Shown: piece by piece, positions 2,296 to 6,660 of the stretch
Layout of the letters: every line of letters begins with the position of its first letter
Position numbering within the stretch: the stretch's first letter is position 1
Assembly (NCBI GenBank): GCA_016932965.1
Contig: JAFGBW010000279.1
Location: 1-6,808, forward strand
Direction of reading: 5' to 3'
DNA from: Candidatus Auribacterota bacterium
Lineage (GTDB): Bacteria; Auribacterota; JAFGBW01
DNA: 6,808 bases
Made by a program: the position numbers and the translations under genes
The notes under the pieces: generated by a model
What the model saw: only the letters and a program-made list of their open reading frames with translations
Databases searched by the model: none
What the model was told of the DNA's origin: nothing

Positions 2296-2424
2296 ATGAC
2301 TTTCTCATATGCCGTCGTTCAGGATCATTTTTTTCGTGTATTTAGTGTGTTTCATTGTTACAAATGGATCTTTGGACAAGAATGGATTACTGATATTGTT
2401 ATATCCTTCCAGAGAACATCTGCC
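2296..2424 (+). other. Untranslated region upstream of purL
   Basis: This stretch is open in the purL frame from an ATG at 2296, but the encoded 43 residues are rich in F, Y, H and V and do not look like a PurL N-terminus. I see no purine-riboswitch core, no tRNA-like fold and no clear terminator here. It most likely serves as the purL 5' leader; its left end touches the -35 of the divergent flagellin promoter. Confidence 0.5.
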
Positions 2425-5385
2425 ATGAACCACCGCATCGAGATAAAACGCAAACCGGCTTTCAAGGATGGCCGTGAAAATAAGGTCTTAGATGTCATCA
2501 GGGAAGACACCGGCATCAAACCCTTATCCGTCAGACTCATTCAAGTCTATCATTTATTCGGAGAGTATACCGGGCACGACTTAAACCGGCTGATCCTGGA
2601 ATTGTTTTGCGATCCGGTTTGTCAGGAAGCTTCTGCCTCGTTTCATTTTGCCAGGAACATGGATCATGATTTTGTGATCGAGGTGGCTTATTTACCCGGA
2701 GTCACGGACAATGTCGGAAGAACGGCCGCCAAGGGGATCGGGCACATTCTGGGCCGGGAGATCAAAGACTCCCATGTGCGGAGCGCCTGGTTATATTTAT
2801 TCAAGGGATTGCGTTCAAAAAAAGAGGCGGAACATATAGCTAAAAAAGTATTATGCAATACCCTTATTGAGCAGTACTCCATTTTATCGAAAAATGAGGT
2901 GGACTCCGGTAAAATCATTTCCTATTCCCTGCCCCGGGAGGCTCATATCAAGCCCCCTTATTTTTTTGAAATGGATCTTCAAAGGACCGATCAGGGGCTG
3001 AAGGCGCTTTCCGACCAATACGTTCTATCCCTTTCGCTCGAAGAAATGCATGCGATCAGGAATCATTACCGGAAGTCATCGGTGAGAAAAGACAGGAAGA
3101 CCCACAACCTGCCGGAAAATCCAACCGATATGGAGCTCGAAATCCTGGCCCAGACCTGGTCTGAACATTGCAAGCACAAAATATTCGCCGCCTCTATCGA
3201 TTATCGTGAAGGCCGTAAAAGAAAAAAAATTGATTCCCTGTTTAAAACCTACATCAAAGGTTCCACCGAAAAAATCAAGAAAACAAGAAAAGATCTGCTC
3301 TCTGTATTTGTTGATAATTCAGGCATTGTCCGGTTCAATGAGGAATACGCTTACTGCGTGAAGGTGGAAACACACAATTCCCCCTCGGCGCTCGATCCTT
3401 ATGGCGGGGCCATGACTGGAATTGTGGGCGTCAACCGGGATATATTGGGAACCGGCATGGGGGCATACCCTATTTTCAATACCGATATTTTTTGTTTCGG
3501 GTCCCCCTTCACTTCGGAGAAGGCCCTTCCGGAAGGACTCCTGCATCCCAGAAGGATTTTCCGCGGCGTCCACCGGGGAATCAAAGACGGAGGCAATGAG
3601 TCAGGCATTCCGACAGTGAACGGGTCCATTATTTTTGATCCGTCCTTTCTAGGAAAGCCGCTGGTATTTTGCGGAACCGGCGGTTTGATACCCGTCACTA
3701 TAAATGGCCGCCTGTCCTGCAGAAAATACACCCGGCCGGGCGATATCGTGGTCATGTGCGGAGGCCGGATCGGAAAAGACGGCATCCACGGGGCGACTTT
3801 TTCCAGCGCTCATCTCACTGAAACCAGCCCGACCAGCGCTGTTCAGATCGGGGACCCCATCACGCAGAAAAAAATGCTGGATTTTCTCATGGAAGCGAGG
3901 GATCAAGGCTTATATTCCGGCATCACCGACAACGGAGCAGGAGGATTGTCCAGTTCAGTAGGCGAAATGGCCCAGGCCACGGACGGGGCCGTTCTCTATC
4001 TGGAAAAATGTCCGTTGAAATATGACGGACTGCGTCCTTGGGAGATTCTTCTTTCCGAAGCGCAGGAGCGTATGAGCCTGGCGGTCCCCAAGGACAAGCT
4101 GGAAGCGTTTTTAACTCTTTCCAAAAAACGGGACGTAGAATCCACCCCTATCGGAGAATTCAGTGATACAGGATATTTTGAATGTTATTACAAGGGCACC
4201 CTCGTTTGCCGCCTGGAGATGAAAATGCTTCACGAGGGGGTTCCTAAGATGGAATTGGAAGCGGTGTTTGAGACCGCACGCGAGGAACGGTTAAAGATAC
4301 AAAGTACGGATTACGGCCAAAATCTTCTTTATCTGTTGTCACGACCGAACGTGGCCTCAAAGGAATCCTGGGTGAGAATGTATGACCACGAAGTGCAGGC
4401 CCGGACTGTGTTAAAACCCTTTTGCGGGAAAGACAATGACGGTCCTTCAGACGGAGCTGTGCTGAAAATGTTTCCGGACAGTTGCGAGGGGCTGGTTATC
4501 ACGCATGGGCTGGTTCCGAGATATTCGAAGATCGACACGTACCAGATGGCGGCGAACGCCGTTGATGAAGCGGTCCGTTCTGCCGTAGGTTTGGGCGCCA
4601 ATCCTTTAAAATTAACGGGATTGGACAATTTTTGCTGGCCGGACCCTGTTCAGTCAAAGCATACACCGGATGGAAAACAAAAACTGGGGCAATTGGTGCG
4701 CGCCTGCCAGGCTGTGCATGACGTGACGATCGCGTATCAATGTCCCTGCATTTCAGGCAAAGACAGCATGAAAAACGACTACCGAGGCAAGCGAGGTAAA
4801 ATATCCGTTCTTCCGACTTTGCTTTTTACGGTGGCAGGGAAAATCGATGACATCAGGAAAGCGGTCTCTTTTTATTTTAAAAGACCCGGCTCCGCTATTT
4901 ATCTTTTGGGTCAGACTCATCCGGAATTGGGCGCCAGTGAATATTATGACATGCAGGAAATCAAAGGAGGATGTGTCCCCAAAGTGCATCCGGAAAAAGC
5001 AAGAATTTTATACAGGAAAATCCATCAGGCCATCGGGGAAAGACTTTTGGAATCCGTTCATGATTTGTCCGACGGCGGACTGGCTGTCGCTCTGGCAGAA
5101 GCTGCTTTCAGCGGAAACCTGGGAGCCATTGTGCAGCTGGAGACAATGGGAAATACTCTCACATCCGAAGAAAAGCTGTTTTCCGAAAGTCCTTCAAGGT
5201 TATTAGTCAGCGTTTCCCCGGATAACGAAAGGGAATTCAAAAGAATTTTCAAGGGAGAGTCCTGTTGTTATCTGGGAAAGACAGTTTTAGGAACGGACAT
5301 CATCTTCCGGGACAAAGATGCCATCTTGATTCACGAAGACAGAAACATACTGAAAAGCACCTGGAAGGAAGCGTTGAATTTTTAA
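2425..5385 (+). CDS. purL: Phosphoribosylformylglycinamidine synthase, PurL subunit (large type without glutaminase domain)
   Basis: Cytosolic enzyme of purine synthesis: FGAR + ATP + ammonia give FGAM, the ammonia coming from PurQ. The 986 residues comprise a PurS-like N-terminal region (about 1-130, with PGVTDN at 91-96), a linker with WSEHCKHK (catalytic-type His248), and two AIR-synthase-like halves. Half one has VETHNSPSALDPYGG from 314, GGNESGIPTVNG around 389-400, DNGAGGLSS at 502-510 and SEAQERM at 544-550. Half two has SGKDSM at 777-782 and VHDLSDGGL at 878-886. The motifs follow the large E. coli-type enzyme, but the C-terminal glutaminase domain is absent and encoded separately as purQ, 507 nt downstream. 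The PurS-like region is built in, so a separate purS should not be needed. ATG 2425 is chosen because MNHRIEIKRKP matches the usual start; no strong ribosome binding site is seen. An in-frame ATG at 2296 would add 43 unlike residues. Confidence 0.96.
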   Translation: MNHRIEIKRKPAFKDGRENKVLDVIREDTGIKPLSVRLIQVYHLFGEYTGHDLNRLILELFCDPVCQEASASFHFARNMDHDFVIEVAYLPGVTDNVGRTAAKGIGHILGREIKDSHVRSAWLYLFKGLRSKKEAEHIAKKVLCNTLIEQYSILSKNEVDSGKIISYSLPREAHIKPPYFFEMDLQRTDQGLKALSDQYVLSLSLEEMHAIRNHYRKSSVRKDRKTHNLPENPTDMELEILAQTWSEHCKHKIFAASIDYREGRKRKKIDSLFKTYIKGSTEKIKKTRKDLLSVFVDNSGIVRFNEEYAYCVKVETHNSPSALDPYGGAMTGIVGVNRDILGTGMGAYPIFNTDIFCFGSPFTSEKALPEGLLHPRRIFRGVHRGIKDGGNESGIPTVNGSIIFDPSFLGKPLVFCGTGGLIPVTINGRLSCRKYTRPGDIVVMCGGRIGKDGIHGATFSSAHLTETSPTSAVQIGDPITQKKMLDFLMEARDQGLYSGITDNGAGGLSSSVGEMAQATDGAVLYLEKCPLKYDGLRPWEILLSEAQERMSLAVPKDKLEAFLTLSKKRDVESTPIGEFSDTGYFECYYKGTLVCRLEMKMLHEGVPKMELEAVFETAREERLKIQSTDYGQNLLYLLSRPNVASKESWVRMYDHEVQARTVLKPFCGKDNDGPSDGAVLKMFPDSCEGLVITHGLVPRYSKIDTYQMAANAVDEAVRSAVGLGANPLKLTGLDNFCWPDPVQSKHTPDGKQKLGQLVRACQAVHDVTIAYQCPCISGKDSMKNDYRGKRGKISVLPTLLFTVAGKIDDIRKAVSFYFKRPGSAIYLLGQTHPELGASEYYDMQEIKGGCVPKVHPEKARILYRKIHQAIGERLLESVHDLSDGGLAVALAEAAFSGNLGAIVQLETMGNTLTSEEKLFSESPSRLLVSVSPDNEREFKRIFKGESCCYLGKTVLGTDIIFRDKDAILIHEDRNILKSTWKEALNF

Positions 5386-5398
5386 AAAATAGTGAAGA

Positions 5399-5433
5399 AG
5401 GCACAAAGCAATTGAGGCACAAAGGCACAGAGG
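5399..5433 (+). repeat. Left terminal repeat of the purL-purQ insert
   Basis: Three GGCACARAG units: 5400-5408 (AAAG form), a 7-nt spacer, 5416-5424 (AAAG form) and 5424-5432 (AGAG form, sharing one base with the previous unit). AGGCACAAAG occurs exactly at 5399-5408 and 5415-5424. The segment 5421-5433 is the exact inverse of 5845-5857, and 5399-5408 of 5862-5871. It begins 14 nt after the purL stop. Confidence 0.85.
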
Positions 5434-5870
5434 AGAAGAGGCTGGAAGATATGGGAGAAAAAATAATAACGTTTAGGAATTTAGTCGTTTGGCAAAAATC
5501 GATGACTTTAGTAACAAATGTTTATCAGGTATCCAGGGCATTTCCTAAAGATGAGTTTTATGGCTTGACTTCACAAATAAGACGTTGTGCTGTTTCTATT
5601 CCCAGTAATATTGCTGAAGGATATGGCAGAAAATCAACAAACGATCACATACGTTTTCTTCAAATATCAACAGGTTCTGTCTATGAACTTCAGACACAGT
5701 TGGAAATTTCTTTTAATCTTAACTATATCACTCAACCTGTTTTTCATGAAGTTTATGAATCAAGCAGGGAAATTGAAAGAATGCTCAGTAGTTTGATTAT
5801 TGAATTAGGAAAAAAATAAATGACACATTTTCCAACACTTTGTGCCTCTGTGCCTTTGCCACTTTGTGCC
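5400..5870 (+). mobile_element. Putative repeat-bounded four-helix-bundle cassette between purL and purQ
   Basis: A 471-bp unit consists of one small AT-rich gene and two inverted repeat-rich ends of identical architecture. It separates purL from purQ, whose products act together, yet harms neither reading frame. The gene belongs to the family found in intervening sequences of 23S rRNA genes, which are known insertions. No transposase, recombinase or convincing target-site duplication is visible, so mobility is inferred from the shape and location, not shown. A resident operon gene surrounded by locally amplified repeats is the alternative. Confidence 0.5.
5451..5819 (+). CDS. Four-helix-bundle protein (S23 / 23S rRNA intervening-sequence family)
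   Basis: A 122-residue protein with the family's signature order: FRNLVVWQKS (8-17), FPKDEFYGLTSQIRR (31-45), SIPSNIAEGYGRKS (49-62), RFLQISTGSVYELQTQLEIS (68-87), and a last amphipathic helix to residue 120. The fold is a four-helix bundle that forms oligomers in solved relatives; its role is unknown for most members, while related Avd proteins assist diversity-generating retroelements. No reverse transcriptase or variable repeat is seen here. The gene is clearly more AT-rich than purL and purQ, which suggests separate origin. ATG 5451 is chosen because similarity begins at once (GEKIITFRN); the frame stays open upstream into purL, but that part has no family similarity. Flanked by inverted GGCACARAG repeats. 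Confidence 0.9.
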   Translation: MGEKIITFRNLVVWQKSMTLVTNVYQVSRAFPKDEFYGLTSQIRRCAVSIPSNIAEGYGRKSTNDHIRFLQISTGSVYELQTQLEISFNLNYITQPVFHEVYESSREIERMLSSLIIELGKK

Positions 5871-5892: not shown

Positions 5893-6660
5893 ATGAAAGT
5901 CAAAGTCTTGATTTTAACCGGCTACGGGATCAATGCGGAGAAGGAGCTCGCCTGGGCTTTCAAAATGGCTGGCGGGAAGCCTCATATTCTCCACATGGAG
6001 GACGTGATAGAAAACAAGAGCCTGATGCGGCAGTATCAGATTCTGGCTTTCCCGGGCGGATTTTCCTTTGGGGATCATATTGCCAGCGGCAAAGTATACG
6101 GCAATTTGGTCCGTCATCATTTTCTGGATGAGGTGAGGGCATTTGTCTCATCCGAAAAACTGGTGATTGGGATCTGCAACGGATTTCAAATCATCACGAA
6201 AATGGGGCTTGTTCCGGATCTGGACGGGAACCAGACACAGACAGTCAGTCTCATTGAAAATACCAGCGGCAGATTCGAGGACCGATGGGTTCATCTGAAG
6301 GTGCAGCCGAACAATTCTCCCTGGCTGCGGAACCTGGATGAGCTTTACCTGCCTGTCAGGCACGGGGAGGGGAATTTTGTCGTTCAATCACCGGAACTAT
6401 TATATTTATTGAATCAACAGCATCAAATCGGTTTGCGTTATTCCCATCCGCAGGGTAAAGAGGTGGAATACCCGTATAATCCCAACGGTTCGGTGGAAAA
6501 TATAGCAGGTATTTTAAACCGGAAGGGCAATGTGTTCGGATTGATGCCCCATCCGGAGGCATTCATTTTTCCTGAAAATCATCCTAATTGGACAGAAAGA
6601 ATGAAACCAGGGCCTCTGGGTTTGGAAATATTTGAAAACGGGATTGAATATTTCAGGTGA
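5893..6660 (+). CDS. purQ: Phosphoribosylformylglycinamidine synthase, glutaminase subunit PurQ
   Basis: Class I glutamine amidotransferase that hydrolyses glutamine and passes ammonia to PurL. The 255 residues show the full catalytic apparatus: nucleophile Cys95 in GICNGFQ, and His220 and Glu222 in MPHPEA. Other family motifs are AFPGGFSFGD (52-61), NTSGRFEDRW (123-132), RHGEG (156-160) and YPYNPNGS (193-200). The last two and the overall spacing resemble the glutaminase domain of the large fused PurL of E. coli more than the short Bacillus-type PurQ, which agrees with the partner upstream. The N-terminal motif reads GYGINAE, where many PurQ proteins have a Cys after Asn; E. coli also lacks it, so this is probably harmless. 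The ribosome binding site is weak (AAAGAG, 5878-5883) and lies just past the insert's right end. Confidence 0.96.
   Translation: MKVKVLILTGYGINAEKELAWAFKMAGGKPHILHMEDVIENKSLMRQYQILAFPGGFSFGDHIASGKVYGNLVRHHFLDEVRAFVSSEKLVIGICNGFQIITKMGLVPDLDGNQTQTVSLIENTSGRFEDRWVHLKVQPNNSPWLRNLDELYLPVRHGEGNFVVQSPELLYLLNQQHQIGLRYSHPQGKEVEYPYNPNGSVENIAGILNRKGNVFGLMPHPEAFIFPENHPNWTERMKPGPLGLEIFENGIEYFR

Follow-up and report, generated by a model that had tools for sequence, protein, structure and literature searches.

An intervening-sequence protein gene framed by inverted arrays of 8-nt units between purL and purQ in an Auribacterota genome, probably a small mobile element

We analysed a stretch of 6,808 nucleotides from a Candidatus Auribacterota bacterium (contig JAFGBW010000279.1 of assembly GCA_016932965.1), hereafter the window, in which a gene for a 122-aa intervening-sequence protein (IVP) lies between purL and purQ, all three on the + strand (Table 1). 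The window PurL is 1029 aa long and matches PurS weakly over residues 127-196. The pur pair is of a different type from that in the order's other genomes, and the closest relatives of PurQ belong to other phyla, at no more than 49% identity.

Table 1 Features of the purL–purQ region of the window, in order along the + strand.
Feature	Coordinates	Strand	Evidence
purL, left neighbour (PurS-like N-terminal part fused to PurL)	2296..5385	+	TIGR01736, E 1.1e-159; PF02769, PF00586, FGAR-AT linker
Left end array, four 8-nt units: GGCACAAA, GCAATTGA (degenerate), GGCACAAA, GGCACAGA, then G	5400..5432	+	Sequence; shuffle expectation; same frame in other copies
IVP gene (23S rRNA intervening-sequence protein / four helix bundle protein), 122 aa	5451..5819	+	PF05635, E 1.6e-40; TIGR02436, E 7e-39; AlphaFold2 pLDDT 97, Z 21.5 to 2gsc
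Right end array, inverted, units from outside in: GGCACAAA, GTGGCAAA, GGCACAGA, GGCACAAA, then G	5838..5870	-	Sequence; shuffle expectation; 94% identity over 34 nt to arrays on C57, C150 and C213
purQ, right neighbour	5893..6660	+	TIGR01737, E 4.4e-54; GATase_5, E 3.7e-75

The insert spans ~471 bp (~0.47 kb) between the outer array edges and has the IVP gene as its sole cargo; this is the only ORF within the unit, where Pfam and NCBIfam detected no transposase domain. The symmetric-array insert is real. A position check recovered all six GGCACARAG units listed by the first-pass annotation (starting at 5400, 5416 and 5424 on the + strand, and at 5838-5846, 5846-5854 and 5862-5870 on the - strand), and the AAAG and AGAG variants are exchanged at the inner positions, as it had described. 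Dinucleotide shuffles of the window contained a mean of 0.07 such matches and a maximum of 1 (n=200). The same annotation had read each end as a unit, a 7-nt spacer and two further units with an 8-nt step; this spacing is correct, and each end is more precisely a four-unit array with an 8-nt period, in which the ‘spacer’ is a degenerate second unit. The array unit is GGCACARA, and the second unit from the outside is degenerate in both arms. In the predicted fold of the window RNA, the inverted arrays pair to give a closed structure (-129.9 kcal/mol, z -3.7).

Besides the pentameric IVP 2gsc (Table 1), the structural model of the window IVP matched 2rld (Z 18.2) and, with Z ~15, the protein Avd of diversity-generating retroelements (4dwl, 8ub7). 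Residues E56 and E79 were invariant in 192/192 IVP domains, and Q42, R45, S49, N53, R60 and S76 were kept in at least 90% of them. That polar positions never vary in so small a helical bundle suggests a specific role for the protein, not simply scaffolding. We know of no activity of the IVP protein and, to our knowledge, IVP/S23p proteins have been on record for 30 years without an assigned function.

In other phyla with this PurL–PurQ pair (L036-L039 and L041), purL and purQ abut, with a spacing of ~5-60 nt; from this gene order alone, we infer that the window carries an insertion relative to those genomes. No target duplication was visible when the edges of the insert were inspected. An unrelated genome (L257, G059:C38:71492-71794; also L045) has a distant IVP gene, with 29% identity, immediately upstream of purQ; this is a second, probably independent, case.

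When the host genome was searched for the ends with and without the gene, arrays were found around a deleted IVP gene, around no gene and on their own. The 17-mer GGCACARAGGCACARAG had 14 matches in this genome, compared with 0 for the reversed pattern, and the four-unit frame was kept in the other copies. In one copy (C23; L016 1089-1304), both ends are present and the IVP gene has lost its middle ~85 codons, so that only its first and last parts remain; the C-terminal side is 87% identical to the window right end over 86 nt. Another (C18; L015 1715-1846) consists of the two ends, ~75 nt apart, without a gene. Solo four-unit arrays occur on C3 and C90, and on C57, C150 and C213 the array stands at the margin of a longer repeated block. 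The arrays of the window are therefore dispersed both with and without the gene. The host genome also contains a second IVP lineage (C205 and C211) with heptamer end units AGAATTC and AGGAGTC, like those of cyanobacterial plasmid elements; copies of this lineage at L025:979-1410 and L023:1134-1511 are 94% identical and share an in-frame TGA. A separate host repeat family consists of near-perfect 45-nt palindromes, TCTGAAGGGAACCTGTTCTTTGGCACAAAGAACAGGTTCCCTTCAGA (L022:993-1039 and 1984-2030; L031:957-1001), which contain GGCACAAAG, by chance or by relation.

Clean empty sites were found for heptamer-family elements on Nostocales plasmids, the window element being of the 8-nt family. An IVP unit lies upstream of a virB10-like gene on Trichormus variabilis plasmid C (L261) and in Scytonema NIES-4073 (L264), and is missing from the L261 site on ~97% identical plasmids of Aulosira, Nostoc linckia, Microchaete and Nostoc carneum (L266-L269). 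When 423 bp together with one GTAAT are taken out of L261, what remains aligns to the L266 site over 111 nt without indels, differing at 2 positions. Because L270, a plasmid of greater divergence, has a truncated copy at almost this position, the L266-L269 sites may have lost the unit precisely instead of never having been filled. In Aulosira laxa NIES-50, the L261-type site is empty on plasmid3, and a copy of the L261-type unit, 84% identical, is present elsewhere on plasmid2. At a second junction, with the direct repeat TTCTA, L278, L284 and L285 carry a unit and L275, L282 and L283 lack it; filled and empty versions are found on different plasmids of one strain. Presence and absence are thus accompanied by 5-bp direct repeats, GTAAT and TTCTA, at two sites of these heptamer-family relatives. 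A gene-less unit with inverted arrays (L281) occupies a junction that is empty in L280 and holds a full unit in L276. At the C-D junction (L275) and the TraM junction (L276 versus L280 and L281), presence and absence are clear and the repeat is not clean; we rejected both as clean duplications. The cas6-cas4 junction (L259 versus L273) was rejected as a clean empty site because L273 lacks the IVP unit but has a different insert in its place. This junction holds two unrelated inserts: the IVP unit in Anabaena sp. 90 and a palindromic one (AGTAGGTTGGGTT... ...AACCCAACCTAC) in Dolichospermum UHCC 0315A (L273:1020-1300). Operon genes separated by IVP units include purL-purQ, cas10-cmr3, cas6-cas4 and the ribonucleotide reductase alpha and beta genes. 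The first-pass annotation had proposed a minimal mobile unit with regular ends, and this idea is supported by the recurrence of the arrays with and without the gene, the abutting purL and purQ elsewhere, and the empty sites and short target duplication in plasmid relatives.

Our collection of IVP loci covers many phyla, drawing on 191 related and unrelated genomes, IMG/VR and GTDB representatives. In an initial comparison of 36 loci, 32 had flanks whose match to each other as inverted repeats exceeded the 95% level of mismatched pairs; the matching stretches are tandem arrays, with a unit that varies from locus to locus. A blind periodicity test (joint z>6) found periodic flanks on both sides of 134/192 IVP loci, compared with 24/200 control ORFs taken from among the other ORFs of the same loci. 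Steps were 7 nt (65 loci), 8 nt (62) or 9 nt (7), with none other in the range of 4-13. Positive control ORFs mostly had steps of 7 or 8 too, which probably reflects the dispersal of such arrays across these genomes. The array step follows the IVP protein tree, with 19 step changes compared with 49.5 after shuffling (minimum 42, n=300 shuffles), or 17 compared with 23.1 (minimum 17) when the genome_contigs loci were left out. About nine of ten IVPs at least 55% identical to that of the window use the 8-nt step, and most below 55% use 7. No IVP match was found in phage records at E<=1e-3.

In the window subfamily, the array unit is C-W-R-A-G-N-N-N (8 nt, core CWRAG), with a modal span of four units per side. 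Agreement within arrays was 0.89-0.98 at core positions, 0.77 at the A/G position and 0.69-0.79 at spacer positions. Orientation is fixed: upstream arrays were in sense in 54 loci versus 3, and downstream arrays inverted in 47 versus 3. Agreement of spacer bases between the two arms was 0.52 within a locus and 0.39 between loci, and we rejected conserved arm-to-arm pairing on this basis. With a conserved core, a fixed orientation and arm spacers that are little matched, the units look as if they are read by something, rather than maintained by mutual pairing or by slippage. In the Flavobacteriaceae, the IVP gene has been retained at one locus across species (dN/dS ~0.095) and its arrays are kept while their three spacer bases drift; this retention at a single locus indicates that not all members are currently mobile. 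In F. columnare, a four-helix-bundle gene has been described with a guanylate kinase gene on one side and a nadD-type gene on the other (PMC5524665).

Intervening sequences (IVSs) of rRNA genes share several of these features. One copy, on an Azospirillum lipoferum plasmid (L277), is located within a 23S rRNA gene (Rfam RF02541) and has inverted heptamers at its borders. In the Coxiella IVS, tandem GACAGAT heptamers directly precede S23p; this IVS has a terminal stem of 28 bp and is excised by RNase III (PMC4990558). In CPR bacteria, IVP genes are found in 16S and 23S rRNA insertions (PMC11270868). We therefore regard operon elements and rRNA IVSs as a single kind of element found at different addresses. 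Like the rRNA IVSs with an S23p gene in Leptospira, Coxiella and Brucella, the window unit encodes a protein of this family (PF05635, 138 bits against a cut-off of 33.8), is a single-gene unit of ~0.4-0.5 kb and has inverted complementary ends. It differs in its 8-nt step and in lying between the protein-coding genes purL and purQ rather than in a 23S rRNA gene, so that the window copy is not itself an rRNA IVS, and its stem-capable ends are predicted from sequence. This kind of element is very widespread and poorly studied, and its related members jump between operons and break up rRNA genes.

We consider it probable (about 0.7) that the window insert belongs to the IVP/IVS kind of small mobile element and has the inverted arrays of tandem units as its cis-acting ends; on this reading, its insertion between purL and purQ disrupted neither gene. 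Under the mechanism that we propose, an IVP oligomer, pentameric in solved members, would bind the array units one after another and bring both ends together in the nucleic acid being moved, and insertion would make a 5-bp staggered target duplication. In the RNA form, the two arrays could pair into a hairpin cuttable by host RNase III, by analogy with what others have shown for rRNA IVSs; such cutting would make insertion inside operons and rRNA genes tolerable. Gene-less arrays would be substrates moved in trans. Most likely, it is the IVP that recognises the array and joins the two ends, with the IVP itself, a host nuclease or a trans-acting transposase as candidates for the chemistry.

The unit might instead be non-autonomous, with the IVP as cargo or accessory and the arrays recognised by an enzyme acting in trans (Y1 or other transposase, or a reverse transcriptase), a reading that we regard as rather unlikely. 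It would account for gene-less and solo arrays, and the protein Avd, which shares the IVP fold, works with a reverse transcriptase. It also suits one 1.0-Mb genome (G108), which has 97 matches to the GGCACARA double-unit pattern, six Y1_Tnp genes and no IVP gene even at E<=1, so that arrays can outlive, spread or do without a resident IVP. The arrays in the stretch of this genome that we inspected are solo, at least one of them beside arrays of other units; at L324:18350-18650 (G108:C1), an array is followed by other heptamer runs (GAAACTC, TGGTAAT, ATTGGAA, GCTGAGA), as if array kinds pile up intergenically. Y1_Tnp was present in 7/9 array-bearing genomes, compared with 8/19 genomes without a window-type array. 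Against a foreign enzyme, array step and IVP lineage go together, which such an enzyme does not predict, and the window genome (G000, 92.6% complete) has neither a Y1_Tnp nor an RVT_1 match. The suggestion in the first-pass annotation that the unit was retro-inserted, or served by a shared reverse transcriptase or transposase, fared poorly. We rejected a reverse transcriptase as the shared enzyme because RVT_1 had no match in G000 or in the array-bearing genomes G108, G134, G156, G017 and G011. The Y1/RAYT transposase, absent from G000 and G162 and present in most other array-bearing genomes, was set aside as suggestive at best. As the protein that cuts and joins, we favour the IVP itself or a general host nuclease over a reverse transcriptase or a Y1 transposase.

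Regulatory or processing sites of the IVP mRNA, through autoregulation or an RNase III hairpin, acquired and then kept in place, would explain the fixed orientation of the arrays relative to the gene, the G-rich and purine-rich upstream arms (G>C in 115 loci versus 12), the long retention of arrays at the orthologous Flavobacteriaceae locus despite spacer drift, and the closed predicted fold of the window RNA. This account leaves unexplained the empty sites with 5-bp repeats, the copies at new sites and the gene-less inverted pairs; as a replacement for mobility we find it improbable, and such a role may hold alongside mobility, not instead of it. We give hardly any credence to the arrays being ordinary heptamer or octamer microsatellites, produced by replication slippage and lying beside IVP genes by chance. 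Unit number does differ between close copies (L261 versus L264), as it does between Coxiella strains (PMC4990558), and heptamers are over-represented in cyanobacteria for reasons unknown (PMC4692102); however, slippage would not produce inverted symmetry with a fixed orientation or steps restricted to 7-9 nt, and it would homogenise all positions alike, contrary to the stronger agreement of core than spacer positions.

The mobile-element reading touches several known systems. The window IVP and Avd of diversity-generating retroelements have the same fold, and the window protein gives weak matches to the bAvd and DivGenRetAVD families; the two differ in sequence (~12% identity), in the lack of a reverse transcriptase match in the host genome and in the tandem arrays at the window ends. 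Homology of Avd to PF05635 has been noted before (PMC10053308). MITEs and REPIN/RAYT systems likewise comprise short, non-coding dispersed units with inverted ends, as in the gene-less copies C18 and L281, whereas the ends of IVP elements are tandem arrays of 7-9 nt units and the host has no Y1 match. Unlike a DDE-type insertion sequence, the window unit encodes no transposase. The cyanobacterial STRR heptamers and the GGGAATC and GGGGA(C/T)T repeats of Xanthomonas and Nostoc resemble IVP arrays in being tandem heptamers of many sequences, mostly intergenic; the step is 8 nt in the window and 7 nt in 65 other IVP loci. Paired inverted repeats have been noticed in Xanthomonas (PMC4692102). We found no published link between STRR heptamers and IVP genes or mobility, and that article makes no mention of four-helix, 23S rRNA or S23. 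Prior knowledge thus covers the protein family and its occurrence in rRNA genes, its resemblance to Avd, and heptamers in one IVS and in cyanobacteria. In the open-access literature we found no description of the general rule of inverted 7-9 nt arrays around IVP genes, of the coupling between step and lineage or of 5-bp repeats at empty sites; this literature includes no preprints and few subscription papers, so an earlier description is possible.

A broader proposal, which we put forward tentatively, is that IVP/S23p proteins could be the recognition, perhaps catalytic, proteins of a large and separate class of mobile elements with ends made of 7-, 8- or 9-nt arrays. Each lineage would read its own unit, present in a few copies per arm, possibly one per subunit; many short tandem repeats of bacteria would be traces of such elements, and rRNA IVSs would be their rRNA-resident members. 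If true, this would link three things that have been described separately and without a mechanism: the S23p/IVP family, the fragmentation of 23S rRNA in several bacteria, and the tandem repeats of 7-9 nt that abound in cyanobacteria and environmental genomes. The coupling between protein and repeat, together with the 5-bp empty sites, makes the idea directly testable.
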